A program made the position numbers and the translations under genes. From positions 1 through 50,238 of the forward strand of contig MEOK01000003.1 in the NCBI GenBank assembly GCA_001769195.1: DNA of 50,238 bases. Reading direction: 5' to 3'. Below are positions 1 through 24,971 of this stretch, in pieces. The first letter of the stretch is position 1. Every line of letters starts with the position of its first letter. A model generated the notes under the pieces. It searched no databases and was not told the DNA's origin. It saw only the letters and a list, made by a program, of their open reading frames with translations. Source of the DNA: Bacteroidetes bacterium GWF2_40_14 (GTDB taxonomy: Bacteria; Bacteroidota; Bacteroidia; Bacteroidales; UBA932).

Positions 1-678
1 TTTCTCCTTTACAGTATAATACCCTGCATTAACTGTTACCTCTTTCAGTTCGGCAATTTCTTCCTGTAAGGTCACGTTAATCTCCTTCCTGTTCCCAACA
101 GCAATTTCCTTTTTTTGGTAACCAATGCAGGTAAAAACAAGGATATCATTTTCACTTGCTTTAATAGTATATTTACCGTCGGTGTCGGAGGTTGTACCTT
201 TATTTGACGCCCCTTTCACCACTATGGTTACATCGGATAAAGGTTCCCCTTTGCTGTTTGTTACCTTGCCGGTTATGGAAATTTGTTCTCTTGCCTTTTT
301 CACTTGCGAAGCGGGAAAGATAACTACCTGCTTGTTTACTATTTCAAAAGCCAGTCCGGAGTCTTTAAGACAATAGCTGACAATTTCTGCCAAAGGAACT
401 TTTAGGAAGTCACCGGTTACCTTTTTAAGGATTTTAATATCGGAACTCTGGTACAGGAAACTATATCCACTCAGCTTTTCAAGTTGTTCAAAGACCGATT
501 CAACAGTTTGATTGTTACACTTCAGCGTGTAAGTCTTGATTTGATTACTCTGGGCAGAAGCAGTGGCCATGGTCAAGACACTAAATGCCCCTGATAGAAT
601 AAGCGAGAGATTGACAATTAACAATGTTTTTCCTATTCCATGCTTTTTGCGGAAAAACATTGTATGGAAATTTTTCAT
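1..678 (-). CDS. SusC/RagA-family TonB-dependent receptor, N-terminal part (runs off left edge)
   Basis: Outer-membrane receptor that imports ligands delivered by a SusD-type lipoprotein. The 226 visible residues show a signal peptide ending near ATASAQ, an STN (secretin/TonB N-terminal) domain at about 40-115, which is the part that contacts FecR in signalling receptors, then a carboxypeptidase-regulatory-like domain (about 130-205) and the start of the TonB box/plug region (ELKEVTVNAGYY). Start: ATG at 678 was chosen over an in-frame ATG at 702, because the other two SusC genes here also start within the same CATAnnTTTG context. FecR ends 118 bases upstream. The part encoding the regulatory-like domain is almost identical to the SusC at 6286-9591. 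The rest of the gene lies outside the window. Family is certain, ligand unknown. Confidence 0.93.
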   Translation of the reverse strand, partial: MKNFHTMFFRKKHGIGKTLLIVNLSLILSGAFSVLTMATASAQSNQIKTYTLKCNNQTVESVFEQLEKLSGYSFLYQSSDIKILKKVTGDFLKVPLAEIVSYCLKDSGLAFEIVNKQVVIFPASQVKKAREQISITGKVTNSKGEPLSDVTIVVKGASNKGTTSDTDGKYTIKASENDILVFTCIGYQKKEIAVGNRKEINVTLQEEIAELKEVTVNAGYYTVKEK

Positions 679-685
679 ACATTTG
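678..685 (+). promoter_or_regulatory. Candidate -7 box of an antisense promoter at the first susC start codon
   Basis: TACATTTG fits the Bacteroidota -7 consensus TAnnTTTG on the plus strand. Its first T is the complement of the A of the susC ATG. No good -33 TTG element at the usual spacing was found. The same placement recurs at the two other SusC genes in the window. Confidence 0.4.
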
Positions 686-691
686 TTTTTA

Positions 692-780
692 GAGTTTAAC
701 ATAAATTCTGATTGTTTCTCCCCTGTTAATTCCGGGGGGAGGCTGGGCAGGGGGTTGTTCGAGCAACTCCCTGTCTTTTT
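692..780 (+). ncRNA. Predicted short antisense RNA over the first susC leader (DonS-like)
   Basis: About 89 nt would be made if transcription starts about 7 bases after the TACATTTG box and stops at the hairpin/T-run at 748-780. The RNA would be complementary to the leader between FecR and SusC. Cis-antisense RNAs in this position repress sigma/anti-sigma-controlled polysaccharide loci in Bacteroides (DonS). Existence here is inferred from promoter-like and terminator-like signals only. Confidence 0.42.
748..780 (+). terminator. Intrinsic terminator on the strand opposite to susC
   Basis: CAGGGGGTTG (748-757) pairs with CAACTCCCTG (764-773) over 10 positions, one being a G-U wobble that exists only in plus-strand RNA. 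The loop is 6 nt and is followed by tcTTTTT (774-780). No plus-strand protein gene ends here, so it must serve another plus-strand transcript. Confidence 0.65.
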
Positions 781-795
781 GTGTAGTGGCTTAGG

Positions 796-1977
796 TTATG
801 GTTCTTTCATAATAGTAATTGTTTTATTGGTTACCTGAAACTGTATACGTTTTGTTTTTCCCAACAGAATGAAAATTTCTTCTACACTGGTTTCTCTCGG
901 AATATTACCTGTGAAACAGAGGCTCTTAAGTGAAGAATCGGCATAAAAAATATCGACATCGTACCATCGGGACATATTTCTCATTATATCTTCAAGCGGA
1001 GTGTCTTTAAATATGAATCTGCCGTCTTTCCAGGCAGTGTACAAGGAGGTATTCACCTCTTTCACTCTGATCACTCCTTCTGAATTAAGCTCAGACTGTT
1101 GTCCGGGCTTTAATATTACCAGCCCGACTTGTACGTAACCTTCCACCAGTGTTGTTCTTACTGTAGATTCGTCGGCATAAGCATTGACATTGAAGTGTGT
1201 ACCTAGCACTTTTACTTCGGGTTTATTAACTACTTCAACTATAAAGGGAACCTTGTTTTTCTCTACTTCAAAATATACTTCACCTGATATTGCGACCCTG
1301 CGTTCTTTTCTGTTGAATTCAACGGGAAATTTTATGCTGGAAGCAGCATTCAGCCATGCCTTAGAACCATCGGGCAGCTCTACAAAATATTCTCCTCCGC
1401 GTGGTGTTTCTATGGTGTTCATTCCTGCCTGACCCCCTTCATAAGGTGAGGAGTTCGCATATAGCAATCTACCGTCATCTTGTTTGATTATTTCAGATCC
1501 TCCCTGAGTAGCCAGAGTGCCGGTCCTGGCACTGTCCAAAACTATTTTGGACCCATCTCCCAGAGTAAGTATGGCTTTATTGCCACCCGGAACGATATTA
1601 TTTATTTGTAATTCTGCTGTTTGTTCAAGAGATATTTGTTGTCTGTCATAATAAAACCAAGTGCCGGTTATCATAAGAATCACTACTGCCGCTGCAGCAT
1701 AGCGAAATAAAGAACGATTAAAATATCTGTGTTTATCTATTTGTTTGTCTATTTGACGCTCGAGTTTTTCCCACTCTTTCTCCTGATCATATCCGGACAG
1801 TATCTTTTTACGATTTCCCCATTGAGACTGGCTTTTTAAGGTATCATAAATAGTCTTGTTCCCGGGTGCTTCATCAAGCCAGTTCTTTAACACCTGCAAC
1901 TCATCAGGTGATACGTTCCCCGACAGTTCCCGGCTTATCAAACGGGCAATTTCAATATCCTTTTTGTAATTTTTCAT
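796..1977 (-). CDS. FecR-family anti-sigma factor (DUF4974 type)
   Basis: Inner-membrane anti-sigma factor that holds an ECF sigma factor in check until the SusC receptor signals. From ATG 1977 the protein has 393 residues: a cytoplasmic N-terminal part, one membrane segment (about 90-108, AAAAVVILMITGTWF), a periplasmic FecR domain (about 180-275, with the typical LPDGSKAWLNAASSI stretch) and a C-terminal DUF4974 domain. An ORF extension to 2034 would run into the leader of the divergent sigma gene and was not used. The gene lies between the divergent ECF sigma gene (start 2058) and SusC (start 678). Having sigma and FecR divergent rather than in series is unusual and differs from the two other loci here. 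Confidence 0.93.
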   Translation of the reverse strand: MKNYKKDIEIARLISRELSGNVSPDELQVLKNWLDEAPGNKTIYDTLKSQSQWGNRKKILSGYDQEKEWEKLERQIDKQIDKHRYFNRSLFRYAAAAVVILMITGTWFYYDRQQISLEQTAELQINNIVPGGNKAILTLGDGSKIVLDSARTGTLATQGGSEIIKQDDGRLLYANSSPYEGGQAGMNTIETPRGGEYFVELPDGSKAWLNAASSIKFPVEFNRKERRVAISGEVYFEVEKNKVPFIVEVVNKPEVKVLGTHFNVNAYADESTVRTTLVEGYVQVGLVILKPGQQSELNSEGVIRVKEVNTSLYTAWKDGRFIFKDTPLEDIMRNMSRWYDVDIFYADSSLKSLCFTGNIPRETSVEEIFILLGKTKRIQFQVTNKTITIMKEP

Positions 1978-2057
1978 TCTTTTTACTGTATCCTTCTTAA
2001 GTATAATAACGTTTGGGTAGAAAACGGGTGACAATTTTTTTATACTTTTACCAACAA

Positions 2058-2621
2058 ATGGAGTTAATGCAGATTACAGATACGCATATTTTGAGTATCA
2101 GAGAGGGAAACATGACAAGTTTCAGATTACTGTACGAAACTGTTTTCCCACCACTGATTTTGTTTTCACGTCGGTTTGTGGATGAAAAGGATGCCGCTGC
2201 AGATCTGGTGCAGGAGGCTCTGCTTGCATACTGGAACCGTCGTAAAGAATTTAAAACGGTTATCGAAGTAAAAGCGTTTCTGTTCGGCACCCTTAAAAAT
2301 ATGTGTCTTAACCATCTCCGTACAAAAAAAGTGCATGGACGATATGTACAAAAAACAATGGAAGAGGCAGATCGAAACACAGAACAAGAGGAGGAGTCTT
2401 TAGTGATCAACCATGCTATTATTGAAGAAGAGACCTTTGCATTGTTGTTCCGAGCTTTATCTGAACTGCCCCCACGTGAAAAAGAGATAATGGAACTCAG
2501 TCTGCAAGGCAAAAAAAATCAGACAATTGCAGATGTCCTCAGTTTGTCGGTGAACACAATAAAAACATTGAAGTTAAGGGCATATCGCAGGATAAGAGTA
2601 TTACTCTGGCAAAGAGGATAG
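2058..2621 (+). CDS. ECF-family RNA polymerase sigma factor
   Basis: Sigma-70 family protein of 188 residues that would direct RNA polymerase to promoters of the adjacent uptake locus. Region 2 is seen around RRFVDEKDAAADLVQEALLAYWNRR (first third) and region 4, a helix-turn-helix, near the C-terminus (LPPREKEIMELSLQGKKNQTIADVLS, then SVNTIKTLKLRAYRRIRV). Start at ATG 2058; ATG 2067 is equally possible, while the longer frame from 2013 adds residues not typical of the family. It is transcribed away from its probable anti-sigma factor (ATG 1977) across an 80-bp gap that must hold both promoters. A long inverted repeat follows at 2669. Confidence 0.93.
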   Translation: MELMQITDTHILSIREGNMTSFRLLYETVFPPLILFSRRFVDEKDAAADLVQEALLAYWNRRKEFKTVIEVKAFLFGTLKNMCLNHLRTKKVHGRYVQKTMEEADRNTEQEEESLVINHAIIEEETFALLFRALSELPPREKEIMELSLQGKKNQTIADVLSLSVNTIKTLKLRAYRRIRVLLWQRG

Positions 2622-2668
2622 TAAGGCAGAACTTAAATTTGAGAATGCCTTTCTCCTTGGACTGAAAA

Positions 2669-2745
2669 ACTCCGGCGTTGTCTGATAATCATTAACCTAA
2701 AACTTACTTTATAAACCTAGTACTATAGATCAGACAACGCGGAGT
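2669..2745. repeat. Long-loop inverted repeat between convergent genes
   Basis: ACTCCGGCGTTGTCTGAT (2669-2686) and ATCAGACAACGCGGAGT (2729-2745) are complementary except for one unpaired base; the loop is 42 nt and AT-rich. It lies between the plus-strand sigma gene (ends 2621) and the minus-strand gene ending at 2779, so it could stop transcription from both sides. The loop is longer than in usual intrinsic terminators. Confidence 0.75.
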
Positions 2746-2778
2746 ATTCATCAGGTTAGATAATTGTTTGCTTTTTAC

Positions 2779-3264
2779 CTACTTAATCTTTACCTCTATG
2801 AGCAGATTCTCTTCTAACGGAGGAAGGCAAAAAACTGAATTACAGCTTTGATAACGTAGCTTTGCTTTTATTTTATATAACCCAGACTTCGTTTCCGGTT
2901 GTACTTTAAATAAGGGTCTAATTTTTATTTTTCCCATGTACACCTGATACAGATCTTTAACCATAGGCTCCGGCCATTGAATTTTCTCTTCCATAACAAT
3001 GCCCTCTGGTAGTTCAAATGTAATGCTGGCTTCCAACATCCCCTGTTCTGCATTTGTGCCCGTGGGTGCATAGATATACCAAGAATCCTGAATATCTAAA
3101 AAGATATTTACGTTGAATTTCTCCCCAATATGAACTACTTCGGGTATTTTTGCGGTGAATTTTACAGGCAGTTTAGATTGTTCCTGCGCCCGGCATAGGT
3201 TGATTGAGCCGATAAAAAGGAAAAGCAGACAGTATAAAAAGTGTGTGTATCTTAATTGTAACAT
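2779..3264 (-). CDS. Secreted protein with DsbD N-terminal-like (DsbD_N) domain
   Basis: The 161-residue protein has a signal peptide (LRYTHFLYCLLFLFIGSINLCRA) and then a single domain like the N-terminal immunoglobulin-like domain of the thiol-disulfide carrier DsbD. The family marks are the WYIYAP stretch near the middle and CNSVFCLPP near the C-terminus, whose two cysteines four residues apart are the redox pair in DsbD. There is no membrane or thioredoxin domain, so it would be a free periplasmic or surface-attached module. ATG 3264 was chosen; a GTG at 3291 would overlap the preceding gene by 20 bases. It is the last gene of the SusC/SusD operon, 7 bases after the FG-GAP gene. The redox partner is unknown. 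Confidence 0.8.
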   Translation of the reverse strand: MLQLRYTHFLYCLLFLFIGSINLCRAQEQSKLPVKFTAKIPEVVHIGEKFNVNIFLDIQDSWYIYAPTGTNAEQGMLEASITFELPEGIVMEEKIQWPEPMVKDLYQVYMGKIKIRPLFKVQPETKSGLYKIKAKLRYQSCNSVFCLPPLEENLLIEVKIK

Positions 3265-3271
3265 TGTATTC

Positions 3272-4726
3272 CTATTTCTGTTGTTTTTCACCTAACATTA
3301 CATATACATATCCTTTGTGGGCCAGTCTGCGATACTCCTCCTTGCCATAATAATTTTTGAATAACATTTCCCGCGTCATCAATCTTCTTTTACTGGCCTC
3401 CTCATTATTAATTCCAAGTTCAGAAACCCTTTTTTCAGCCCGCTCCATCTGGTCTTTTATCATCTTTTTGAAACTCTCACTATAATACACCGGATTTTTT
3501 TTGATGATCCCTGTTTCATATTCCCAGTTCCAGGATAGGTTATAGTCAAATGCACCATCGATTGTGGCCACACTTGTCCCTATCAGAAGATCATTCACTC
3601 CATCATTGTTCCAGTCAGTCACATAAGTCTGGAGCCAGCTTCCGGGAAAAGTCTTGCCACCATCTTTGGTTTTAAACAGCGCCACTCCGGATTCAAAACG
3701 ATGTCCCTTTTGGGTCCTCACACCCCGAAAAAAGGTAACTGCAGCTTTGCCTTTATTCAGATAACAGTCAGTGACCATCAAATCCAATACGCCATCCTGA
3801 TCCCAGTCTGTTACTAAGGGCACAATATTATCAGAACCGGCAATTGACAGAGTTCCTATATAATCTTTCACATCTTCTTTTGTGTAGGCATATATTTTCA
3901 GTGGATTCTCCTCTACATCCAGCAAGAACTCCCGGTAGCCAAATTTTGGTTTGTTTTTGGTTCCTGTGTTTTTGCTTATACGTAAACCGGCTCCTCCCAC
4001 AACCATATCTTGGAGGCCATCCCCGTCAAAATCCCCGAAACTTACTGAGGAGTAATTCCAATAGGAGTAGCTTTGTGGATCTGTAACGGGTAAATTATTC
4101 CCGTAAAGAGGATGTTTGTCCCGGTACTCCTGTTCAATTTTTTCTCCGGTTATAAAACCGTGCTCACCCCCTCTGAACCAGGTTACATCCCCCGGGAAAT
4201 AGTGACCGGTAATAAGATCCGGGTACCCGTCATTGTTCAAATCTGCAAACTGAGGTCTGAACGACATGCAGCACCACAAATAGACCGATAATGGTGTACC
4301 ATTGCTTTCGGTGCCTTTTGCCGGTTCAACATAGGGCATTGCATACTTAAACTCATCTGAAAATTCCGGAGAGTTATCACTCCCCTCATTGATGTATACC
4401 CTGATGAAATTACCCAAAACATTACCGTTTGCCATTTCCAATCCGCTCGCAAATTCTCCAATAAGCAGATCTTTTTCCCCGTCACCGTTCCAATCGAACA
4501 CTGCCGGGGCAGCCCAGCCCATTCCTTCACCCATCAACGGTTTAGTCTCCCTCATAATTAACATTGGCTTACCCAGCCTGGGAGCACCGGGAATATCCGG
4601 CTGTATAAGTTCCGGAAAGGACTCAGGACCTTTTACCTGTTTGTTTGACTGAGCACTTATTTCTGTCAGGGGCATAATAATGATAACTAATGCCCATATC
4701 TTTAATCTGTTCATTTTGATTTGCAT
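3272..4726 (-). CDS. Secreted FG-GAP/VCBS repeat protein
   Basis: 484 residues with an N-terminal signal peptide (ALVIIIMPLTEISA) and at least five FG-GAP/VCBS-type blade repeats, each with a calcium-loop pattern: FDWNGDGEKDLLIG, FADLNNDGYPDLITG, FGDFDGDGLQDMVVG, VTDWDQDGVLDLMV and VTDWNNDGVNDLLIG. This suggests a calcium-binding beta-propeller outside the cytoplasm, usually a binding or scaffold module. The C-terminal 70 residues are charged and helical. It follows SusD by 145 bases containing a hairpin, and is followed closely by the DsbD_N-like gene, so it is probably part of the surface complex of this locus. An in-frame ATG at 4714 is an equally good start. Enzymatic activity cannot be inferred. 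Confidence 0.88.
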   Translation of the reverse strand: MQIKMNRLKIWALVIIIMPLTEISAQSNKQVKGPESFPELIQPDIPGAPRLGKPMLIMRETKPLMGEGMGWAAPAVFDWNGDGEKDLLIGEFASGLEMANGNVLGNFIRVYINEGSDNSPEFSDEFKYAMPYVEPAKGTESNGTPLSVYLWCCMSFRPQFADLNNDGYPDLITGHYFPGDVTWFRGGEHGFITGEKIEQEYRDKHPLYGNNLPVTDPQSYSYWNYSSVSFGDFDGDGLQDMVVGGAGLRISKNTGTKNKPKFGYREFLLDVEENPLKIYAYTKEDVKDYIGTLSIAGSDNIVPLVTDWDQDGVLDLMVTDCYLNKGKAAVTFFRGVRTQKGHRFESGVALFKTKDGGKTFPGSWLQTYVTDWNNDGVNDLLIGTSVATIDGAFDYNLSWNWEYETGIIKKNPVYYSESFKKMIKDQMERAEKRVSELGINNEEASKRRLMTREMLFKNYYGKEEYRRLAHKGYVYVMLGEKQQK

Positions 4727-4786
4727 TGCTTTGTTTTTATTTTATTATTTTCAGTCACTGCTGTTTTGCGATAAAGAATATTATAA

Positions 4787-4866
4787 TTTAGAGCGTATCC
4801 GGAAAGCCCAATACCAAAGTGCTATTACATTTGCACTTTTAAAGTAGACTTTCCGGACACTCTAAA
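4787..4866. repeat. Nested hairpin between susD and the FG-GAP gene
   Basis: The outer arms 4787-4806 and 4849-4866 share TTTAGAG and TCCGGAAAG blocks (7 and 9 paired bases around a small internal loop). Inside, AAAGTGC (4816-4822) pairs with GCACTTT (4833-4839). In the operon RNA it starts 6 bases after the SusD stop codon and lacks a T-run on the transcribed side. It may protect the upstream message or lower expression of the downstream genes. Confidence 0.65.
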
Positions 4867-4871
4867 ATTAT

Positions 4872-6266
4872 CTATTCATCATAACCCGGATTTTGCTCCA
4901 TATTGCTGTTTAGCAACTGATCCTGAGGAAGCGGGTATAAGGCAGCCATTGAAGTCCAGCTTGGTTTTAACGCACTTAAAACGGCGTTCACTCTGCCGGT
5001 GCGTTTCAAATCGAACCAGCGGTGTCCCCATTCGGTGAATAATTCTATCCGGCGCTCCTGTTCCACGGCTGCCAATGCTGCCTCTTTGGACAAAGTGGCT
5101 GATAAGGCAGGCAAGGGATTGGGAACCTCGGCAGTGACAGTCGCTCTTGCCCTTGCCCGTAAAATATTCAGATCGGCAATACCGTCCGCAATTTTTCCTG
5201 ACTGCTGTATTCTGGCCTCGGCACGGATCAGATACTGCTCTGCAAGTCTGAAAACCATCTGGTACTCCGTGATGGGACTGCTGCTGGTGGATTTATGTTT
5301 ATATGTAATATAGTTGGTGGTGTTAGTAATTCCCGTAACCCAATTAATTCTGCGTTTATCTCCTGCTTCAAAGCTGTTAAGCAGCTCCTGACGCAGCACT
5401 ACATACTTATTCTTAATAAAAGCAAGAGCATCTCCGGCGTTGTTATTGTCGTTGCATAAGTGCCAGATTGCCTCTGCGCTTCCTTTCAGAAACACATTGT
5501 CCAGGTTGGTTTGCAGGCTGTAGGGACCTGCATTGATACACCCTGTGGCCTGTATCTCTGCATTGGCCCAATCTCCTTTATAAAGGTACACCCTTGCCAA
5601 CAGAGCAGTTGCGGCACTCCAGTCTATCCGTTTCCGTTCAATAGTGCCGGTATTGTATGAGGGTTGTAACAAGCTTTGTGCATCTTTTAAATCGGTGATC
5701 ACCTGTTCGTACACATCTGCCACTGCAGTTCTGTCTGCCACATTGTTGACCCTGTAATCGGTAGTAAGAACAAGAGCTACATCACCGAACAGGTTAGCCA
5801 GGTAAAAATGGCAAAAGGCACGGATTACCTTTGCTTCACCTGCAAATTTGCTTTTGAGCTCAGATGATAGTTCTGTCGAATTATTCACCCCCTCAATCAC
5901 CGCATTGGCTTTGTAAATGGTCTCGTACATCTTGTTCCAAAGGTCTCGCACATTGATACTGGTAGAAAGCAAGGTATTGTTTTTAAAAACATCAAGATTT
6001 GTGTTACTGGAAACAGTCACCGTTTCATCTGCAGAGAGCGACGATAAAAAGGTTATACTCTTGATGCCGCCTGTAAAGGAGGACCAGGTGCTTCCCCCGG
6101 TTAAGGTATAATAGAGGCCCCGTACGGCGGCTTCGGCAGTCTCCTGGTTGGCAAAAATGGTACCCCTTTCCAGTGCTGTACGTGGCGGATCTATCTCCAC
6201 AAATTTTGTACAAGAGGAGGCCAACACAACCAGTAAGATATAATATTTAATATTTAAAATTTTCAT
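4872..6266 (-). CDS. SusD/RagB-family outer-membrane lipoprotein
   Basis: Surface lipoprotein forming the lid of the SusC channel and capturing the ligand. 464 residues with a lipoprotein signal (ILLVVLASSC, lipidated Cys19), a helical TPR-like SusD N-terminal half (AEAAVRGLYYTLTGG, VIRAFCHFYLANLFGD) and the conserved C-terminal half with AAVEQERRIELFTEWGHRWFDLKRTGR, a signature of the family. It lies 19 bases after SusC, so the two are co-transcribed. Length is a little below the usual 500-600 residues, fitting the compact SusD subgroup. Ligand not predictable. Confidence 0.95.
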   Translation of the reverse strand: MKILNIKYYILLVVLASSCTKFVEIDPPRTALERGTIFANQETAEAAVRGLYYTLTGGSTWSSFTGGIKSITFLSSLSADETVTVSSNTNLDVFKNNTLLSTSINVRDLWNKMYETIYKANAVIEGVNNSTELSSELKSKFAGEAKVIRAFCHFYLANLFGDVALVLTTDYRVNNVADRTAVADVYEQVITDLKDAQSLLQPSYNTGTIERKRIDWSAATALLARVYLYKGDWANAEIQATGCINAGPYSLQTNLDNVFLKGSAEAIWHLCNDNNNAGDALAFIKNKYVVLRQELLNSFEAGDKRRINWVTGITNTTNYITYKHKSTSSSPITEYQMVFRLAEQYLIRAEARIQQSGKIADGIADLNILRARARATVTAEVPNPLPALSATLSKEAALAAVEQERRIELFTEWGHRWFDLKRTGRVNAVLSALKPSWTSMAALYPLPQDQLLNSNMEQNPGYDE

Positions 6267-6285
6267 AATATCAATGGTTTAAAGG

Positions 6286-9200
6286 TTAAAGTGTTATTCG
6301 GATACCACCTGTTATCAACCTCAGAGGTGACAGGGTTGTTTTTCCGGTTTCCGGATCAAGCCCCTGATAGTTTGTTATGGTTAACAAGTTTTGTCCCTGT
6401 AGATAGAGACTTAGCCCCTGAAGATGCAACTTACGGACACTCTCTTCAGAAAAAGTGTATGTGAGTGAAAGGTTTTTAAGACGGATATAGGAGGCATCAG
6501 TTAGACAATGATCACTCGATTGCATTCTCATATAGACAGTCCATGGAGTACCCTCATCCGTTGAGAATTTTTGAGTATCAGCGATATCCCCGGGGTTTCT
6601 CCAACGATTCAGTACAGAAGTTGGCTGGTTTTGAATCATTATTCCCGGTGAGCCGGAGCCAAAATAATTATAGCCGTCCTGTTTTACAAACTGGAACATA
6701 ACATCCAGTTGAAATCCTTTATACTGGAATGTGTTCAGCAAACCACCAAAGAACTTCCTTCCGAAATTTTTAATAACCGTCCGGTCGGTACTATTGTAGG
6801 TTCCGCTACTATCCACGTCCAGAAAAGTATAAAGGCCGGTTTGAGGATCGACTCCGGTAAAGTGATACAACTTTCTTATATTCAGTGGTTGTCCAATTAT
6901 ATGGGTGCTATTATAACTGGAATTTGTCTCCAGGTTGGGGAAATCGATCAGTTTGTTGCGAGGTATCGAAATATTGAAGGAGGTGTTCCACTGAAACTCT
7001 TTTCCTTGAAAATTAACGGTATTCAATTCAATTTCCACCCCGGTGTTTTGGACCGTAGCCGGCAAATTGGAGAGAATACTGTTAAAACCGGTGGTTGGTG
7101 CTAGTCTATACTTAACCAGTTGGCTGGAAGAAAGATTTTTATAATACCCTGCCTGAAGGAATATGCGATCCTTCAGAAAGCCCAGATTAACAGCCACCTC
7201 AAATTTTTTATTTATTTCCCAGGCATAATCAGCATTAAACAGGCGGTCGGGATTAAGTGCAGATTTGCCTTCATATGTATTGCTAGCTATTGTGGAATAA
7301 GTATCCAGGTACTGGTAATCTCCAATCTGATCATTCCCGGAGGTTCCGTAACTGGCTCGAAGTTTGCCAAAACTTAAAAAATCAAGGTGTTTTTTCACAA
7401 ATGGCTCTTCAGAAAAGATCCAAGCCACACCAAAAGCCCCGAAATTGGCAAATTGCTTGCCGGGACCAAAGCGGCTGGAACCGTCTCTACGACCAGTCAG
7501 GTTAAAAATATACCGGTTTTTGATTGAATAGTTCAATCTGCCGAACAGAGCCTGATAACGGTATTGGCTAAAGCTTGATGAACTATAAATAGATGGTGCT
7601 GAACCAATATTTCTCATTAATGCTTCATTTGTATACCCCCAAGTAGTGTGATAGGCACTTTGCGACTTTTGGTCCATAAAGGTAGCCCCTGCCAGTAAGC
7701 TTAAGGTTTGTTGGTTGGTAATGTGAAGTTCATAGTTAAGCTGCGGCTCAATAATCCAGTTTTGAGTATTATTTTGGTGAAAAACAGTTGCGTTATCATA
7801 AGCATAATAGGGATCATACATACTCCTAGGTGCTGTCATTATGCCGTTCATCCCGGTATTGGTATAACCGATTGAGGTTTTTAGAGTTAAATTCTGAAGC
7901 AGACTGTAACTGACATCTATATTGCCCAAAAAATTATTTGTCTGGGAGTCGTATTCCCCGTTCAGGTATGCCAGTGGGTTTGTCCAGGAACCAAGTCCGG
8001 AGGCATCAGGCTCCCAGTTTAAGGTGCCGTCCTCATTGTATATTGCCGGAGAAACTGGAGCTAGGGTTAGTGCTGTTACTGTTAAATCCGTGCTTATCAG
8101 GTCTGAGAAACTTACGGAATAATTTATTGAGGCATTCATTTTAAACCTTGTGTCCGGAGAAGTGTTGGTCAGTCTTAGATGGGTGGAGATCCTCTGATCG
8201 CTTCCATTGCCCGGGAAAACAGTCGTCTCTCGATGGTATCCCCCCCCTACAGAAAATTGAATCAAATCACTCCCGCCAGATGCTGACAATTGAATATCGT
8301 TACTATAGGCTGTATTTCCCAACAGCACTTTTTGCCAGTCGGTATAACGGCTATTGTCCCATAAGCCACTCAAATCATAATCGAAATCACTAGGAGTGGA
8401 AGCTGCATTGACAAAGGCCTCATTTCTCATCTCAAGGTATTGCTCGGAATTGAGCAAATCCATATAACGGGTCAGGTTTCCCATACCGCTGTAGAAATTC
8501 AGGTCAACTTTTGTTTTGCCTGTCCGCCCTTTTTTGGTAGTAATCAGTATCACACCGTTTGCGCCCCGTGAACCGTAAATGGCTGTGGCATCGGCGTCTT
8601 TTAAAATTTCAACACTTTCAATATCAGCAGGATTAATAGCGTTCAGGGGGCTTGTTCCGGTTAAAAAAATGTGGAAATTCCAATCATTGACAGGTGACAG
8701 GGATGTAGATGAAAAAGGAACCCCGTCAATGATATACAAGGGGTCATTCCCACTGGCTATACTATTCTGCCCACGGATACGCACCTGGAAATTTCCTCCG
8801 GGGGCACCGGACTGCTGAGTAATATCCAAGCCCGGCACATTGGCCTGCAAAGCAGAGAGTACGTTTTGCACAGGCTGTTTTTCAATATCTTTGGCATTGA
8901 CCTTTGAAATACTGCCTGTCCGTTCTTTCTCCTTTACAGTATAATACCCTGCATTAACTGTTACCTCTTTCAGTTCGGCAATTTCTTCCTGTAAGGTCAC
9001 GTTAATCTCCTTCCTGTTCCCGACAGTAATTTCCTGTTTTTGGTAACCAATGCAGGTAAGAACAAGAATAGCATTTTCACTTGCTTTAATAGAATATTTA
9101 CCATTGGAATCGGAGGTTGTACCTTTATTTGACGCCCCTTTCACCACTATGGTTACATCGGATAACGGCTTTCCTTTTTCATTGGTTATTTTCCCTGTTA

Positions 9201-9591
9201 CTATAACCTCCTGTTCATTTACTTTTGGGGTGACAACTATGGTTTTACCCTCAATAATATAACCCAGGGGTTGTCCTTTAAAACATTTCTCCAGAGCCCC
9301 TGAAATATTTTCTTTCTCCAGTTTCACACTTACGGGATGTGCTTTTTCAAGCATTTCAGAATTGTAGAGGAATTCATAGCCGGTTTGCCGGTTTATCTCT
9401 TTAAAAATACTTTTCATAGAGACTTTTTCACACGAAAGACTGATTGTCTGTGCATTAACCTCTGCATAAACCTGCTGCATGAATAGAACACTCAGGATAA
9501 TTACCAGTTTCATGGTTATCAGAATTTTGATGAGCGGCTGCCAATTAATCCCCGATTTCTCAGGAATATGGCAGAATGAATTTAAATTCAT
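6286..9591 (-). CDS. SusC/RagA-family TonB-dependent receptor with STN signalling domain
   Basis: Outer-membrane beta-barrel importer of 1101 residues from ATG 9591. After a signal region (IILSVLFMQQVYAEVNAQ) come an STN domain that can signal to FecR, a carboxypeptidase-regulatory-like domain (VTGKITNEKGKPLSDVTIVVKG), a TonB box region, the plug with the SusC signature LKDADATAIYGSRGANGVI, and the barrel to the C-terminus. An in-frame ATG at 9633 adds 14 residues, but 9591 matches the start context of the other two SusC genes. It lies in series behind sigma and FecR genes and 19 bases before SusD, so it is both the transporter and the sensor of this locus. The regulatory-like domain DNA is about 95 percent identical to the SusC at the left edge. 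Confidence 0.95.
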   Translation of the reverse strand: MNLNSFCHIPEKSGINWQPLIKILITMKLVIILSVLFMQQVYAEVNAQTISLSCEKVSMKSIFKEINRQTGYEFLYNSEMLEKAHPVSVKLEKENISGALEKCFKGQPLGYIIEGKTIVVTPKVNEQEVIVTGKITNEKGKPLSDVTIVVKGASNKGTTSDSNGKYSIKASENAILVLTCIGYQKQEITVGNRKEINVTLQEEIAELKEVTVNAGYYTVKEKERTGSISKVNAKDIEKQPVQNVLSALQANVPGLDITQQSGAPGGNFQVRIRGQNSIASGNDPLYIIDGVPFSSTSLSPVNDWNFHIFLTGTSPLNAINPADIESVEILKDADATAIYGSRGANGVILITTKKGRTGKTKVDLNFYSGMGNLTRYMDLLNSEQYLEMRNEAFVNAASTPSDFDYDLSGLWDNSRYTDWQKVLLGNTAYSNDIQLSASGGSDLIQFSVGGGYHRETTVFPGNGSDQRISTHLRLTNTSPDTRFKMNASINYSVSFSDLISTDLTVTALTLAPVSPAIYNEDGTLNWEPDASGLGSWTNPLAYLNGEYDSQTNNFLGNIDVSYSLLQNLTLKTSIGYTNTGMNGIMTAPRSMYDPYYAYDNATVFHQNNTQNWIIEPQLNYELHITNQQTLSLLAGATFMDQKSQSAYHTTWGYTNEALMRNIGSAPSIYSSSSFSQYRYQALFGRLNYSIKNRYIFNLTGRRDGSSRFGPGKQFANFGAFGVAWIFSEEPFVKKHLDFLSFGKLRASYGTSGNDQIGDYQYLDTYSTIASNTYEGKSALNPDRLFNADYAWEINKKFEVAVNLGFLKDRIFLQAGYYKNLSSSQLVKYRLAPTTGFNSILSNLPATVQNTGVEIELNTVNFQGKEFQWNTSFNISIPRNKLIDFPNLETNSSYNSTHIIGQPLNIRKLYHFTGVDPQTGLYTFLDVDSSGTYNSTDRTVIKNFGRKFFGGLLNTFQYKGFQLDVMFQFVKQDGYNYFGSGSPGIMIQNQPTSVLNRWRNPGDIADTQKFSTDEGTPWTVYMRMQSSDHCLTDASYIRLKNLSLTYTFSEESVRKLHLQGLSLYLQGQNLLTITNYQGLDPETGKTTLSPLRLITGGIRITL

Positions 9592-9598
9592 AATTTTG
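9591..9598 (+). promoter_or_regulatory. Candidate -7 box of an antisense promoter at the second susC start
   Basis: TAATTTTG matches TAnnTTTG on the plus strand, overlapping the complement of the susC ATG (9589-9591) exactly as at the two other SusC genes. No convincing -33 element was found. Confidence 0.4.
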
Positions 9599-9604
9599 TT
9601 TTGG

Positions 9605-9684
9605 TTTTGGTGAATACTTGCTTTGTTTTTCATTTTTTCGCCGGAACTATCCCGGGTTCCGTCTCTAGCGGAATCCGGTTTTTT
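9605..9684 (+). ncRNA. Predicted short antisense RNA over the second susC leader (DonS-like)
   Basis: A transcript of about 80 nt would run from just after the TAATTTTG box to the hairpin/T-run at 9652-9684, opposite the FecR-SusC gap. It shares the layout of the predicted RNAs at 692-780 and 24894-24971 but not their sequence, which would make each specific for its own leader. If the longer susC start (9633) is used, it would also overlap the first codons. Confidence 0.43.
9652..9684 (+). terminator. Intrinsic terminator on the strand opposite to susC
   Basis: CCGGGTTCCG (9652-9661) pairs with CGGAATCCGG (9669-9678) with one G-U wobble; loop 7 nt; then TTTTTT (9679-9684). In the minus-strand RNA the wobble becomes an A-C mismatch and the run is AAAAAA, so the element is built for the plus strand, where no protein gene ends. 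Confidence 0.68.
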
Positions 9685-9750
9685 ATATATTTTCAGGCGA
9701 AATTCGGTTTTGTTTATTTGTTCTATCTGATTTTTATGTTGACCTCCTTT

Positions 9751-10944
9751 TTATTTATTACTAACAATTATTGTGTTCCCTATAATTTTAAAATCCACAG
9801 TTCCGGTCATTTTCATAAGATTGAGAATGGCCGATATATTTGACCTGCGTGAAATGATGGCTCCAAAAGTAAGAGCCTTCAAATCCTTGCTTTCATACTG
9901 CACATCAATATCATACCAACGGGACAGATTTTTCATGATAGATTCAAGGTCGGTATCGTTAAAATTGAAGAGACCTTTTTTCCAGGCGATGGATTCATCA
10001 ATGTCAATCTTAGCAATGTTGAATGCTCCGCTGGCATTAAGAGAGGCCTGTTCTCCGGGATGCAATTTAAGGTACTGAGGTATCAAATTATTGAACTTTT
10101 GGAAAACTTGTACAGAGCCTTCTATGAGTGTAGTTTTAATTGCAGGCTCGTCTTCATATGCATTAATATTGAAATGGGTCCCCAATACTTTAACTTCTGC
10201 CTTATTGGCTATGCTTACAATAAAAGGCATCTTTTCGTTTTTGGCTACCTCGAAGTAGGCTTCTCCCCTGAGCTCCACTTTTCGTTCTCCAGCGGTGAAT
10301 GAGGTGGGATAGGTAATACCAGAGGCAGCGTTGAGCCAGACTTTTGTGCCATCGGCTAAAGTGATGGAAATTACCTCACTCCCCCGAGGATTGTCAAGTG
10401 TGTTATATACGATTTCTGCAGAGGTTCCTTTATACTGAAGTTGCCCGTCGTCCAACTTAATGATTTCTACTCCTTTCTGCTGAGCTAACTGACCATTAGC
10501 AAGACTATCCAGATACAGAACCTGACCGTCTGCAAGGGTGATCCTGGCCCGGCTGGCATCAGGAGCTTTCACATCAAGGGGTTGGGCAATTGTAGTAGAA
10601 AGCTGGTCCTGGGGCTGGCCCTGCCGGTCTGTAAACAAGAAGTATGCACCGGTAATCATTAGAACTACTACTGCCGCTGCTGCAATACGGCGCAACGGAT
10701 AGAAGTAACCGATCTTTTTCTTTGGAGCAATAACTTCCCGTATGGTCTCATAAAGTTGCTGCGACTGTCCCGATGACAATAGTTCTGGCAACTTTTCCTT
10801 TTCCCAGCGTTGTTCTATCCATTTTTTCAGGGTATCAGCATTAGATGGGTCGGCCAGTGCCTGTAACAGTTCCTGCCTTTCTTCCAGACTGATTGATTGC
10901 CTTTGATATGCATCCAATAAATTATATAAACGATCTGTTTTCAT
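9751..10944 (-). CDS. FecR-family anti-sigma factor (DUF4974 type)
   Basis: Membrane anti-sigma factor of 397 residues that would bind the ECF sigma encoded upstream and the STN domain of the SusC encoded downstream. The cytoplasmic part (1-80) is followed by a membrane segment (about 86-104, AAAAVVVLMITGAYFLF), a FecR domain in the middle (ITLADGTKVWLNAASGITYP, VELRGEAYFEVAKNEKMPFIV) and DUF4974 at the end (DTDLESIMKNLSRWYDIDV). Start ATG 10944 lies 73 bases after the sigma gene, so the pair is probably one transcript. It is clearly related to the FecR at 796-1977, sharing several blocks, which fits locus duplication. Confidence 0.95.
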   Translation of the reverse strand: MKTDRLYNLLDAYQRQSISLEERQELLQALADPSNADTLKKWIEQRWEKEKLPELLSSGQSQQLYETIREVIAPKKKIGYFYPLRRIAAAAVVVLMITGAYFLFTDRQGQPQDQLSTTIAQPLDVKAPDASRARITLADGQVLYLDSLANGQLAQQKGVEIIKLDDGQLQYKGTSAEIVYNTLDNPRGSEVISITLADGTKVWLNAASGITYPTSFTAGERKVELRGEAYFEVAKNEKMPFIVSIANKAEVKVLGTHFNINAYEDEPAIKTTLIEGSVQVFQKFNNLIPQYLKLHPGEQASLNASGAFNIAKIDIDESIAWKKGLFNFNDTDLESIMKNLSRWYDIDVQYESKDLKALTFGAIISRRSNISAILNLMKMTGTVDFKIIGNTIIVSNK

Positions 10945-11017
10945 CTGCTACTTTATGTTTTTACTCCCCTATTCAACAACAAGACTAATGAGAAGTGAAA
11001 AGGGGTGAGTCGGTTAT

Positions 11018-11590
11018 TTAAAATAAAAGGAAACTAAGGGTACGACTGTCGAGAAAAAGCCGGATACTCCGTAGAGCGGCTTTCATGTGACTTTTGATGG
11101 TGTTAATACTAAGCCCCATCTGCCGGGCAATCTCTTCATGTTTCATACCCTCCTGACGGCTTAATATAAACACTTTTCGTTGTTGTTCGGGCAACTGGCT
11201 GATAACCTGTTGTAAAAGACGATTGTATTCGCTAAACATCACCTCTTCTTCGGTATAGTTTGAGACTTCGCTCTCCTGTCTGTCTATTTCCTGAAGAATA
11301 AGTCGTTCCTTCGCAAGGCGGTTCAGGAAGGTATAGCATTGATTGCGCACCAGGGTCTTGAGCCAGGCATCAAACTGACGTATCTCCGAAAGCTCTGAGC
11401 GGTGTGTCCATATCTTGATAAAAATTTCTTGTGTCACCTCTTCTGCCAGTACATCTGAGCGTGTAAGGAAGAAGGCAAACGAGTAAATGCGCTGATTATG
11501 GGCCTCATAAAGACGGCGGAATGCAGCTTCGTTGCCTCGTGCCACTAATTCAAGAACAATTTGTTCTTTATATGACGGTTTCCCACTCAC
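11018..11590 (-). CDS. ECF-family RNA polymerase sigma factor
   Basis: 190-residue sigma-70 family protein. Region 2 spans about 25-95 (RRLYEAHNQRIYSFAFFLTRS, EEVTQEIFIKIWTHRSEL) and region 4 about 125-180 (LPEQQRKVFILSRQEGMKHEEI, then LSINTIKSHMKAALRSIR). It is the first gene of the minus-strand run sigma, FecR, SusC, SusD, FG-GAP protein, DsbD_N-like protein, and most likely activates that operon when FecR releases it. The C-terminal SFLLF tail is typical of Bacteroidota ECF factors. Promoter specificity is unknown. Confidence 0.95.
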   Translation of the reverse strand: MSGKPSYKEQIVLELVARGNEAAFRRLYEAHNQRIYSFAFFLTRSDVLAEEVTQEIFIKIWTHRSELSEIRQFDAWLKTLVRNQCYTFLNRLAKERLILQEIDRQESEVSNYTEEEVMFSEYNRLLQQVISQLPEQQRKVFILSRQEGMKHEEIARQMGLSINTIKSHMKAALRSIRLFLDSRTLSFLLF

Positions 11591-11637
11591 ATTAAGGTTG
11601 TTATTGTATTAATAATTATTGACCACACCACGATTTC

Positions 11638-12849
11638 TTATCTCAGGAACTTAAATCCCGGCACAATTTCTATCGTAAAACCTTCTTCAAGAGTGAATAC
11701 ATCTTCCTGAGACAATGTCACAATAGTTCCTTTCTCCAGATTATATGTTTTCATGGCATCTATCAATCCTGCAAACTCCCGTTTTCTGTTATCTGAATCA
11801 ACGGAGAGACAAACCTGAATAGCTTGCTGAACAGTTCCCTTTTCAACTATCACAAAATCACATTCAGCGGTTCCCTTATGATAGTATATTTCCCTATATT
11901 GGTAACGTAAAGAGTTATAAACCACATTTTCCAGTTTGTGACCTAAGTCCTCCTTTATCTTACTTACATTTGTACTAACCAGTCCAGTGTCTATAGCATA
12001 TATTTTTTTTGGATTTATGGCCTGCTTTTTTAATGAATAACTGAATAACGGTACAAGACTTATAAGATAACTATTCTCCAGATGAGAGAGATATTCTAAT
12101 ATTGTTGTCGTCGAGTTTATTCCGGATGGCTCTCTCAATTTATTGGCAGAAGTTAGATTGCCAATATTAGACAATAGAAATATTGCAAGCCGTTTCAATC
12201 CCATAGTATCTCTAATATTGTATCTTATAGCGATATCCCTTATTAATATATCATCAAGTAAAGCCGCCAATATTTCTTCATACGATTTTTTTAGATATTC
12301 TGGAAAACCTCCGTAAAGCATATACTCCCTGAGAGACACTTCATCTTTTATATACTCCTTGAACTTGCAAAACTCACTGTAGGAAAATGGGAATAATTCA
12401 TTGGTCAAATGTCTGCCAGTAAGACTTGTACCAAGTTCCCGACTTAATAATGATGCATTTGAGCCAGTTACATAAACCCTAAAGCCCTCATCCAATTTCT
12501 GTCGAACATATCTTTCCCATCCGGCAATAATCTGGATTTCATCAAACATTAATACTTTTGTATTATTTGTATCGATAATAAATCTGTCAATTTTAGTGAA
12601 ATCCGAAAGCTCAAAATCATATAAACGGGGATCGTCAAAGTTTATGTATAGAGCTTCAGGATATGTTTCTACAAGAAGTTGGTGGAGCAATGTACTCTTC
12701 CCGCATCTACGGATACCCGAAATTATGACGGCAAATTTTTCAGTAACAGGTAATGTGACAAGCCTTTCCCTCATCATTCCCACATCTTTTTTCTCCAAAG
12801 CAATCTTCTGCTGATTAATTATCTCTGATAGAAAATCTATCTGTATCAT
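11638..12849 (-). CDS. AAA+ ATPase with C-terminal DUF4143 domain
   Basis: 403 residues from ATG 12849 (a longer frame to 12873 lacks support). P-loop ATPase: Walker A GIRRCGKS at 45-52, Walker B VLMFDEIQ at about 99-106, and a RYVRQKLDEGFRVYVTGSNASLLSREL stretch (sensor I TGSN) typical of this family, followed by a DUF4143 domain with a restriction-endonuclease-like core (AECDFVIVEKGTVQQAIQVCLSV). Such orphan ATPases are common in Bacteroidota and archaea; their cellular job is not established. Two palindromic sites lie in the leader between this gene and divergent apbC, suggesting tight control. The start was chosen because MIQIDFL begins the conserved N-terminus. Confidence 0.9.
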   Translation of the reverse strand: MIQIDFLSEIINQQKIALEKKDVGMMRERLVTLPVTEKFAVIISGIRRCGKSTLLHQLLVETYPEALYINFDDPRLYDFELSDFTKIDRFIIDTNNTKVLMFDEIQIIAGWERYVRQKLDEGFRVYVTGSNASLLSRELGTSLTGRHLTNELFPFSYSEFCKFKEYIKDEVSLREYMLYGGFPEYLKKSYEEILAALLDDILIRDIAIRYNIRDTMGLKRLAIFLLSNIGNLTSANKLREPSGINSTTTILEYLSHLENSYLISLVPLFSYSLKKQAINPKKIYAIDTGLVSTNVSKIKEDLGHKLENVVYNSLRYQYREIYYHKGTAECDFVIVEKGTVQQAIQVCLSVDSDNRKREFAGLIDAMKTYNLEKGTIVTLSQEDVFTLEEGFTIEIVPGFKFLR

Positions 12850-12907
12850 AATATATAAGTTAATTGAAAACAAATTTAGTTATAAATATTCCAAAACCCA
12901 AAATAGT

Positions 12908-12948
12908 TTTCATTCGTAATGGAAACTATTTTTCATTAGCAATGGAAG
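12908..12948. promoter_or_regulatory. Two tandem palindromic sites between the ATPase gene and apbC
   Basis: TTTCATTCGTAATGGAAA (12908-12925) and TTTCATTAGCAATGGAAG (12931-12948) are near-identical palindromes 23 bp apart, i.e. about two helical turns. The first extends to a 13-bp stem (12902-12930). They lie 59-82 bp before the ATPase start and 74-97 bp before apbC. They look like a double operator; the binding protein is unknown. Confidence 0.5.
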
Positions 12949-13021
12949 TATTTAACTGTTTTGAAGATTACAATACAACGAACAAACAGGCGTGATATTT
13001 GTTGATAGGGTTGTCGTTTAA

Positions 13022-14098: not shown

Positions 14099-14133
14099 CA
14101 AATTAGCACATTAGCATATTAGCAAATTAACCC
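14094..14133. repeat. Tandem octamer repeat at the end of apbC
   Basis: Five consecutive 8-base units of the type ATTAGCAN run from 14094 to 14133; the last unit is degenerate (ATTAACCC). The apbC stop TAG (14096-14098) is in the first unit, so copy-number change would not affect the protein. It fills the whole 36-bp gap to the convergent CNNM gene. Confidence 0.85.
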
Positions 14134-14134
14134 A

Positions 14135-15181: not shown

Positions 15182-15253
15182 AAACGTATTTATTTACTTA
15201 TTATTTTGGGACATAAGGAATCTTTATTAATCCTTCATCTCACTTCTGAAAGT

Positions 15254-17017: not shown

Positions 17018-17056
17018 ATCTTATAATTTCTAATAATAGCTACAAATGTAATACAA

Positions 17057-17146
17057 TTATTTTTTTCTGGCGTATTTGGCTGCTTCCGGAATGACCGCAA
17101 GTATATTCTTTATTCTGTTATCGTCGGATGGATGGGTGCTGAAATC
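17057..17146 (-). pseudogene. 3' remnant of an M48-family metallopeptidase gene
   Basis: Read on the minus strand, the last 30 codons before the TAA at 17057-17059 give DFSTHPSDDNRIKN followed by ILAVIPEAAKYARKK. The STHPSDDNRI block is the typical C-terminal motif of M48 (HtpX/Oma1/LoiP-like) zinc peptidases. Similarity stops at the inverted repeat beginning at 17147; reading further meets a stop codon within 12 codons and none of the catalytic HExxH part is present. The fragment appears to be what is left after an insertion or deletion at the repeat. Confidence 0.6.
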
Positions 17147-17254
17147 CAGCCCTATGCTTTCATGGCCAAGTATTGATAATCAATGATTTAATCATTATTT
17201 TCAAAACACATAATGTTGTGAATATCAAATATATGCCATGAAAGCATAGGGCTG
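17147..17254. repeat. Inverted-repeat element, copy 1 (20-bp arms, 68-nt loop)
   Basis: CAGCCCTATGCTTTCATGGC at 17147-17166 and its exact complement at 17235-17254. The same arms occur at 33026-33045 and 33114-33133 around an unrelated loop. The element directly joins the M48 remnant on one side and sits 8 bases after the TlpA-like stop codon on the other. There is no coding capacity. Confidence 0.85.
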
Positions 17255-17262
17255 AGCACTTT

Positions 17263-24200: not shown

Positions 24201-24880
24201 TATGCTCCTGTTGCCCTCTCTTTTGGCAGCGTCTGGTAACCTGTTACCATCACTTCGTTAAGCTGCTTCTCATCTTCCTCCATAACAACAATATAATCTG
24301 TCCTGTCGTCCAGAAATAGAACAACGTTGTTCATACCTATCATCTTAAATAGCAATGACAACCCTTTTGTCTTTGGAACTTCTAAGACAAATTTTCCTTT
24401 GTCGTCTGTAAATGCACCTTTTTTTGTTCCCTGAAGAATTATTCCGACTCCGGGTAAGGGCATCTGGCTCTTATCCAGAACCAGACCTGTAATTTTTACA
24501 GATTGGACACTGGCCGGATTAACTGGTTTTTGCTGAATTACAATCTGTTTTTCGTTAAAAGTGTAAGTGATGTTAGTTTTGGCAAAAACAGTATTCAGAA
24601 CGGTGGAAATAGTCTGGTCTTTTGCCTCAATCGATATTTTTGGCAAAGATTCCACCTGCGACGTTTTGTAAAAGAACTTAAACGTAGTAATTTTCTCAAC
24701 CTCTTTAAAGAACTCAATAATAGACACGTCTTTTAAAGAGATTGTTATTCTCTCCTGCTGCCCTGTTGCATAAACACGAGCGGGAAAAAGGAGAAAAAAA
24801 ACTACCGGCATCAGGACAAGTTGCCGTAAAGCATGCCTTCCGTTGAAGCACTTTTTTCTCAATAGTGAAAAAGTTTTCAT
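21224..24880 (-). CDS. SusC/RagA-family TonB-dependent receptor with STN signalling domain
   Basis: 1218-residue outer-membrane receptor. Signal region (LRQLVLMPVVFFLLFPARVYA), STN domain (about 45-115, ITISLKDVSIIEFFKEVEK), carboxypeptidase-regulatory-like domain (about 128-210), then TonB box/plug (NEVMVTGYQTLPKERATGAYT; LKDAAAASIWGAQAANGVIVI) and the barrel. The receptor is preceded by its own sigma and FecR genes and followed by SusD. Its sequence belongs to a different subgroup from the two SusC proteins in the left part of the window (the GYQTLPKERATGAY type). It starts at ATG 24880 inside a CATAGTTTTG context on the opposite strand, matching the other two loci. Confidence 0.96.
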   Translation of the reverse strand: MKTFSLLRKKCFNGRHALRQLVLMPVVFFLLFPARVYATGQQERITISLKDVSIIEFFKEVEKITTFKFFYKTSQVESLPKISIEAKDQTISTVLNTVFAKTNITYTFNEKQIVIQQKPVNPASVQSVKITGLVLDKSQMPLPGVGIILQGTKKGAFTDDKGKFVLEVPKTKGLSLLFKMIGMNNVVLFLDDRTDYIVVMEEDEKQLNEVMVTGYQTLPKERATGAYTILDSKVLERVGNFSLKDKLEGLVPGLYFEPNYVEDQYPTDQASRSIIIRGASTFGDNNPLIVVDGFPVSSASDPWKSINPDDIENVTVLKDAAAASIWGAQAANGVIVITTKRGKSTTPQVDVSVDFFAQQAPNLNKIPWASSSQAVDIYKWMAFQTTYLDAFTTNAAIYDKYDLAPVIKTIAAAKKGLITMDVANSQLEELKKIDVRDEFAQLFFNKLETNTKANVAYQLGGKTHNFRTSMTAISNKKYNKGNTRTDYTINVNDQLMPAQWVRISVGANLNLTEQTNNGMDIKELNYINQMTRILDDNGNYLPMNAQDSRSTYDSYYTLKTSARADTVAKYKLPYDWNWNLKREADNRDNTERNSDLRLTAKVNLMPIKSINIELSYQYQYINRYLREYYNESSWMVRNQVNNNARTDGTYPVPPGGMLYENKRFGSGNNYRAQITYDKRFGKHSIKAMAGTDWRRDYYDETPYGYYGYDPQALTYSAAMDFKTPVYPKLSNQYTYYQTVPMIPGKYYFSVIGRDDRFVSYFGNFGYTFSTKYDLTGSIRLDKTNLFGSSSESPNLPQWSLGFGWSITEEPFAKKYLKGVDYLKLRASYGWNGNIDKSAAPYLYGYPWKDAVLQLPYSAIQSAPNPNLTWEKTSTYNLGLDYAFLSNNISGTINFYHKDSKDCLVQMAVNGTYGFQNNRATLNAGRLKNTGLEFDIQANVINTKSFKWQTMFQYSTNRNMATGITRVSNNISAYTTMAFYYRKPDHPLSYLAAIEWAGYDEVGLPKIIYDGKETKITDIADVNKLDMEKLFKFVGQKDPKHFGSWTNRFAYKNIELSFSLYYKLGHKVIGDYPPTGMFSSFMTATKMYTYLPEMMAHSWKSAEDATTAKMYNLNNKITNSTHTQLMDAVMAYGTQNVFNASSVRVKSITLSYLVPRSFLQKAKLKDLRIVLEARNLGPIIKFAPFDPDNPPYSSSTYGALLFVTRNRPEFSLGLKIGLF

Positions 24881-24887
24881 AGTTTTG
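24880..24887 (+). promoter_or_regulatory. Candidate -7 box of an antisense promoter at the third susC start
   Basis: TAGTTTTG matches TAnnTTTG on the plus strand and overlaps the complement of the susC ATG (24878-24880). A -33 match was not found at the normal spacing. Confidence 0.4.
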
Positions 24888-24893
24888 CGTTAA

Positions 24894-24971
24894 TTTCTGG
24901 TTAATATTCATGTATTGATCGGTATTGCGGGAGGGAATAAAGTTTACCACGCCTTAGGATCTCCCGCTTTT
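24894..24971 (+). ncRNA. Predicted short antisense RNA over the third susC leader (DonS-like)
   Basis: About 78 nt from just after the TAGTTTTG box to the T-run ending at 24971. It would be fully complementary to the leader between FecR and this susC. Box-to-terminator distance (about 91) matches the second locus (93) and is close to the first (102). Presence is inferred from geometry only. Confidence 0.42.
24927..24971 (+). terminator. Terminator-like hairpin on the strand opposite to susC
   Basis: GCGGGAG (24927-24933) pairs with CTCCCGC (24961-24967), 7 G/C-rich pairs, with a 27-nt loop, then TTTT (24968-24971). The T-run is on the plus strand, pointing away from susC. The loop is long, so this one is weaker than the hairpins at 748 and 9652. 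Confidence 0.5.

Follow-up and report, generated by a model that had tools for sequence, protein, structure and literature searches.

Organization of the Locus

The window, which is the whole stretch of 50,238 nucleotides analyzed here, corresponds to an entire contig (C3) of the 3.36 Mb genome of Bacteroidetes bacterium GWF2_40_14, assembled in 42 contigs. At its left end a susC-type gene and a fecR gene on the minus strand are separated by a gap that carries a putative antisense unit, and two further units lie at other FecR-linked susC genes of the window. The features are the following:

4..678, minus strand: susC-type TonB-dependent receptor with STN domain, truncated by the contig end (PF07660, PF13715)
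678..685, plus strand: predicted -7 box TACATTTG (TAnnTTTG) that shares a base with the susC start codon; no difference from ortholog G004 over 676-685
690..781, plus strand: predicted antisense RNA of about 92 nt, 5' end approximate; MFE -44.2, z -5.35
690..710, plus strand: 5' hairpin of the predicted antisense RNA, from folding
714..743, plus strand: middle hairpin of the predicted antisense RNA, from folding; 3' arm changed in the ortholog, pairing retained
745..776, plus strand: intrinsic terminator hairpin of 14 pairs with loop TCGA, T-run to 780
796..1980, minus strand: FecR-type anti-sigma factor (PF16344, PF04773)
2058..2621, plus strand: ECF-type sigma factor, divergent from fecR-susC (PF04542, PF08281)
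9591..9684, plus strand: second unit, with box TAATTTTG at 9591-9598 on an in-frame susC ATG and a terminator hairpin at 9652-9678 followed by a T-run
24880..24971, plus strand: third unit, with box TAGTTTTG at 24880-24887 on the susC ATG and an imperfect terminator hairpin at 24927-24967 followed by a T-run

The box is therefore present in all three FecR-susC gaps of the window (at 678, 9591, and 24880). At the first locus the ECF sigma gene and fecR-susC are divergent, and at the other two they are co-directional; a minus-strand ORF at 2048-2512, considered as the first sigma gene, was rejected, as it has no Pfam match and the sigma gene is on the plus strand. On the minus strand, an FG-GAP protein and a DsbD_N-like protein (2779-4726) are encoded after the second susCD pair, and two AhpC/TSA-thioredoxin proteins with DUF4369 (17263-19616) after the third one.

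The Predicted Promoter Box

Positions 678-685 of the plus strand read TACATTTG, an exact match to TAnnTTTG and the predicted -7 box of an antisense promoter; the sense-strand reading of the box/start region is CAAATGTATG. The susC start codon is the CAT at 676-678 (ATG on the minus strand, 678-676) and, because the box begins at 678, its first T is the complement of the A of the ATG, so that the overlap from the opposite strand described in the original prediction was confirmed.

Taken alone, TAnnTTTG is weak evidence: it occurs 65 times in the window against 52.9 expected (4 of 100 shuffles contain as many) and is present somewhere in about one quarter of shuffled regions. The earlier caution that a -33 match is missing also held, since no -33 TTTG element stands out in 47 non-redundant box loci, where, apart from the ATG-adjacent codons, the upstream sequence shows only a weak preference for C/A, at 29 bases from the box. 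These results, together with the exact coincidence of the box with the start codon, a place where leaders are often rich in A, would be in line with an explanation in which the box merely mirrors, on the opposite strand, the A-rich surroundings of a translation start, with no antisense promoter and with the hairpin as a leftover or unrelated terminator.

The Terminator Hairpin and the Predicted RNA

The plus strand at 745-776 contains the hairpin GGGCAGGGGGTTGT-TCGA-GCAACTCCCTGTCT, in which 14 pairs are formed and which is followed by TTTTG. A 10-bp hairpin with a T-run had been placed at 748-780; the hairpin and the T-run are there, and the stem is longer than proposed. The distance of about 102 bases from the box start to the T-run end was found to be the same, and the G-U pair possible only in plus-strand RNA is G753-U768, to which three other pairs of this type (two outer and one loop-closing) have to be added. 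In fact, the segment 744-776 folds with -22.5 kcal/mol on the plus strand versus -12.5 for the reverse complement. As a class, terminator-like sites are no more frequent in 1-20000 than expected (13 versus 16.5), and the hairpin at 745-776 has the longest stem among these 13 sites.

The predicted RNA at 690-781 has an MFE of -44.2 kcal/mol and a z of -5.35, with none of 200 shuffles as good, and the sense strand at the same locus reaches a z of only -1.85. A small peptide encoded in the antisense RNA was considered and rejected: the open plus-strand frame is devoid of ATG or GTG and has a 2-base indel in the ortholog. No Rfam family reaches its gathering score anywhere in the window; nine hits obtained by scanning 560-860 permissively all stayed below threshold, the best one being a Neisseria sRNA (E 0.0058, 29.8 bits versus a cut-off of 52), and were taken as chance.

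Conservation in the Ortholog and Similarity within the Genome

A match to the locus was found in only 1 of the 24 other genomes of the genus, the ortholog G004, whose FecR is 72% identical to that of the window. Identity is unevenly distributed along the gap: it is 98% over 679-722, 100% (26/26) over the hairpin core 748-773, and 30/32 over the entire hairpin 745-776, versus 60% and 59% in the linkers 723-747 and 774-795 and 74–75% in coding DNA; it is 92% at the beginning of susC, over the codons at 642-678. The G004 RNA folds into the same three hairpins (-40.0), the middle one with an altered 3' arm. The comparison of FecR-SusC gaps of related genomes suggested earlier does reveal, in this ortholog, a kept plus-strand hairpin.

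In the genome of the window, a 26-base stretch from the box onwards (679-704) is 92% identical to the corresponding piece of another susC locus, L012 (G000:C6:2815-2840; E 5.5e-4), and the bodies of the two units otherwise differ. This resemblance, and the fact that the L012 leader gives the second-best predicted duplex, would be in line with an action in trans on other susC leaders, as for the FopS RNAs of B. theta. Beyond the L012 piece, however, no other site of the genome is similar to the first-unit RNA at E 0.1, and the duplex predicted for the first 55 nt has an energy of -103.9 kcal/mol with its own leader and of -38.0 with the leader that ranks second among 50 susC leaders of the genome (L012). 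Action in trans is thus highly improbable, and the RNA would rather be directed to its own leader.

Recurrence at FecR-Linked susC Genes

The recurrence of the unit was evaluated by a strict rule, consisting of TAnnTTTG, a spacing of 35–110 bases, a perfect stem of at least 8 pairs at -10 kcal/mol or lower, and a T-run. In the own genome 48 FecR_C matches were obtained, of which 35 were used and 13, located in receptor-sized frames, were left out; the relatives comprise 83 loci among the best matches listed to the FecR of the window, one of which (L091) is without susC. The resulting 117 FecR-susC gaps were reduced to 110 (33 own and 77 other) by dropping L021, L026, L053, L078, L108, L110, and L113, in which the next ORF was not clearly a SusC or its start was missed. 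The phylum sample consists of 29 loci from 29 genomes, taken from 80 with matches among 148 searched, and the controls are 17 susC genes without FecR, all from the own genome, including L159, which has an STN-like extension. One own-genome susC (L172, G000:C17:47702-50665) is listed in the search table with one in-frame TGA.

The strict unit was found in antisense orientation at 13/33 own FecR-linked susC genes, versus 0/33 in sense orientation and 0/330 in shuffles, and at 12/77 loci of relatives among the matches listed (sense 0/77, shuffles 0/770); none of the 17 FecR-less susC genes of the same genome has it. When a wider region was considered, units were present at 13/33 own loci, 13/77 loci of relatives (among the matches listed), 10/16 named loci, and 3/15 loci of the same class, and were not found in 14 loci of other classes of the phylum or in the 17 FecR-less genes. 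The third unit of the window is missed by the strict rule. In particular, among the 110 FecR-linked loci (relatives among the matches listed), 28 have both elements, 5 only the terminator, 29 only the box, and 48 neither, so that box and strong terminator co-occur with a Fisher p of 7e-6.

The single elements are less specific: under the strict rule a terminator alone on the sense strand occurs at 0/33 own and 2/77 other loci (among the matches listed), and a box anywhere in the region on the sense strand at 2/33 own, 10/77 other (among the matches listed), and 5/17 FecR-less loci, the FecR-less genes having it on the antisense strand in 4/17 cases. The box alone or the hairpin alone could be due to chance; their pairing in a fixed geometry is non-random. 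As regards the possibility, on which the original prediction could have failed, that homologous loci lack box and terminator, G004 keeps both and 16/33 own loci have the box on the ATG; in 13 of these 16 the antisense terminator satisfies the strict rule, in L030 and L031 it is imperfect, and in L022 there is a hairpin with a weak U-run.

A looser terminator search based on folding gave sense-strand terminators at 3/33 own loci, 4/77 relatives (among the matches listed), 5/16 named, 4/15 class, and 4/17 FecR-less loci, plus a single hit on the antisense strand among the 17 FecR-less genes; because of these hits, of its shuffle rate of 0.10–0.25, and of its missing L013, L017, and L022, it was kept out of the statistics.

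Strand Specificity of the Structure

The antisense strand is more stable than the sense strand in 48 of 49 non-redundant box loci (of 52; relatives among the matches listed), with a mean z of -3.98 versus -2.38, and the same is true for the first 48 nt alone in 43/49. No such bias is present in the controls, where the antisense strand is more stable at 6/17 own box-less loci and 10/17 FecR-less susC genes. A stem search that is symmetric for the two strands, treating G-T and A-C alike, returned 70 G-T (G-U) versus 5 A-C pairs, a wobble valid only in antisense RNA, with an excess of G-T at 37 loci and of A-C at 3, although in 12/49 loci the stem picked was not that of the terminator; the 8 bases after the stem contain 5.2 T on the antisense side versus 1.8 on the sense side. 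Two-sided (compensatory) pair changes in six small subfamilies amount to 7 for each strand, and therefore covariation does not discriminate between them.

These data bear on whether the hairpin could instead function in the susC transcript itself, by attenuation or as a structural element of the leader. A weaker hairpin does exist in the sense leader (-12.5) and the sense z is also negative on average over the box loci, but the sense side has no U-run, the wobble pairs point to the antisense strand, and the sense z at the first locus is modest (-1.85), which makes a role in the sense RNA extremely improbable.

Some hairpins show features of their own. In that of the third unit (24927-24967, plus strand), a long internal segment around AAAGTTTACCAGGCCTTA hardly varies across nine loci from six genomes, the others being L031, L076, L102, L106, L107, L112, L114, and L115; this segment may serve as a site for binding or give the third-unit antisense RNA another function. 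In other classes of the phylum, long hairpins with T-runs are present on the antisense side of the FecR-linked receptors L194 and L196; these hairpins have an inner AACTTCGAG in common, and there is no box on the ATG.

The Box and the Start Codon

In the wider region, 13/13 own units and 13/13 units of relatives (among the matches listed) have the box placed exactly on an in-frame ATG. Over all samples this is the case in 36/39 units and the ATG is inside the box in the other three (L129, L135, and L190), which represent a second register with the ATG within the box rather than at its end. The box alone is on the in-frame ATG at 38/117 FecR-linked loci (relatives among the matches listed), 16 of them own, versus 0/17 FecR-less susC genes, and among 74 distinct ORFs of at least 200 aa (window and 30 own loci) the nine that carry it are all FecR-linked susC. 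A mimic of the box by an A-rich leader, about which the original prediction had warned, is accordingly very unlikely, also considering that box and strong terminator co-occur over the 110 loci (relatives among the matches listed) and that the RNA between them folds better in antisense orientation.

The presence of the box is related to the length of the gap. It is on the ATG in 16/18 own gaps of at least 76 nt and 0/15 shorter ones, and in 22/34 and 0/43, respectively, of the gaps of relatives (among the matches listed), that is in 0/58 shorter gaps of the two sets (relatives among the matches listed); the values for gaps of at least 76 nt and for shorter ones are 7/12 and 3/4 in the named loci, 4/14 and 0/1 in the class sample, and 0/9 and 0/5 in other classes. 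Since the exact box is missing in 2/18 own long gaps, 12/34 of relatives (among the matches listed), 10/14 of the class sample, and 9/9 of other classes, the box on the ATG is common and not universal. The 10/16 named contigs that have it belong to Pedobacter (3/4), Carboxylicivirga, Candidatus Butyricimonas, Mariniphaga (two), Odoribacter, Chitinophaga (1/2), and Dyadobacter; the Odoribacter locus (L134) has a gap of only 37 bases without a convincing terminator inside. In the same-class sample the exact box is on the ATG at 4/15 loci and four other loci have a form of the box that ends in a non-G base; in other classes it is at 0/14.

The sequence CAAAnnTATG is shared by Bacteroidales, Pedobacter, Chitinophaga, and Dyadobacter. 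There is roughly an even chance that in many FecR-controlled susC genes of the class Bacteroidia the translation start and the antisense core promoter are one shared CAAAnnTATG acting as a single switch element; in this reading the promoter would stay fixed to the start codon, so that sense translation start and antisense transcription start would be bound together.

The same arrangement (36/39 units on the start codon, the other three overlapping it from inside) could also be produced if the antisense RNA were made as a by-product and the main action were transcription interference by a promoter-bound or converging polymerase, and most of the antisense sequence of the first unit is indeed not shared with other sites of the genome. 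Structure and conservation of the RNA body count against this explanation because interference alone would not need either, and the strand-specific structure extends to the 5' part (first 48 nt, 43/49), in addition to the conservation in the ortholog. Interference by the antisense polymerase is thus unlikely as the main action; it is the main alternative, action in trans being less likely. The preferred reading is that the FecR-susC gap very probably encodes an antisense RNA of about 90 bases whose predicted promoter lies, here and at many related loci, on the start codon of the importer gene.

Comparison with Known Antisense RNAs and Proposed Mechanism

The primary paper on DonS and on PUL-associated cis-antisense RNAs is reportedly that of Cao et al. 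2016. DonS-type loci are run by an ECF sigma/anti-sigma pair, and the window unit similarly lies in a sigma/anti-sigma locus (FecR 796-1980, sigma 2058-2621). The members of the DonS family are cis-antisense RNAs of 78–128 nt, divergent to susC homologs, whose expression they lower (PMC7366714); the original statement that such RNAs near susC repress their locus agrees with this description. As far as can be judged from the descriptions of DonS and of the PUL antisense RNAs of B. fragilis and B. thetaiotaomicron, the window RNA is likewise antisense and divergent to a susC homolog, its predicted length (690-781, 92 nt) falls within the DonS range, and its predicted promoter has the exact TAnnTTTG box (678-685). 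At the sequence level, the predicted window element shares the DonS-type features that were compared.

The differences consist in the genome and in the start-codon lock, which is not mentioned for those RNAs in the available text. More generally, the portions available of PMC7366714, PMC10994844, PMC11697453, PMC9723704, PMC10861873, and PMC5635687 contain no mention of a box on the start codon, which is not proof that it is unpublished. The lock, and its occurrence in Pedobacter, Chitinophaga, and Dyadobacter, are the less expected aspects of these results.

FopS and GibS of B. thetaiotaomicron are also small RNAs with a terminator hairpin (PMC11697453). FopS, which acts on susC translation starts, is described in the same source as a family present in multiple copies that share an unstructured seed at the 5' end; in contrast, the 5' part of the predicted window RNA is structured, and its own leader is the only one to which it is fully complementary. 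As to the multicopy character with a shared seed R1 that is typical of FopS/GibS, one partial similar site was found in the genome.

The element is likely to be a gene for a DonS-type cis-antisense RNA, about 90 nt long, by which the susC operon would be repressed. Transcription by RNA polymerase carrying the housekeeping sigma factor would begin on the plus strand a few bases past TACATTTG, at about 690, and end near 780, where the hairpin and U-run lie. The product would be a structured RNA of about 90 nt, complementary to the part of the susC leader that extends from about -12 to -103 with respect to the start codon. This RNA would pair in the cell with the nascent or finished susC leader and, like DonS in B. 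fragilis, decrease susCD expression as long as the ECF sigma/FecR system is not calling for susCD. Possible routes are the block of the initiating ribosome, the arrest of leader transcription, or the exposure of the duplex to RNase; the mechanism of DonS is itself called unknown in PMC11697453. Repression is not certain, since for the 32 annotated PUL-associated antisense RNAs of B. theta the correlation with susC is negative for some and positive for others (PMC10994844).

Significance

The analysis converts a lone hairpin into a testable rule, namely a box on the start codon in FecR-susC gaps of at least 76 nt. If the proposed reading is true, antisense control would be common among SusCD systems under sigma/FecR control, also outside Bacteroides, and such RNAs could be found simply, from sequence alone, by looking for the box at the start codon.
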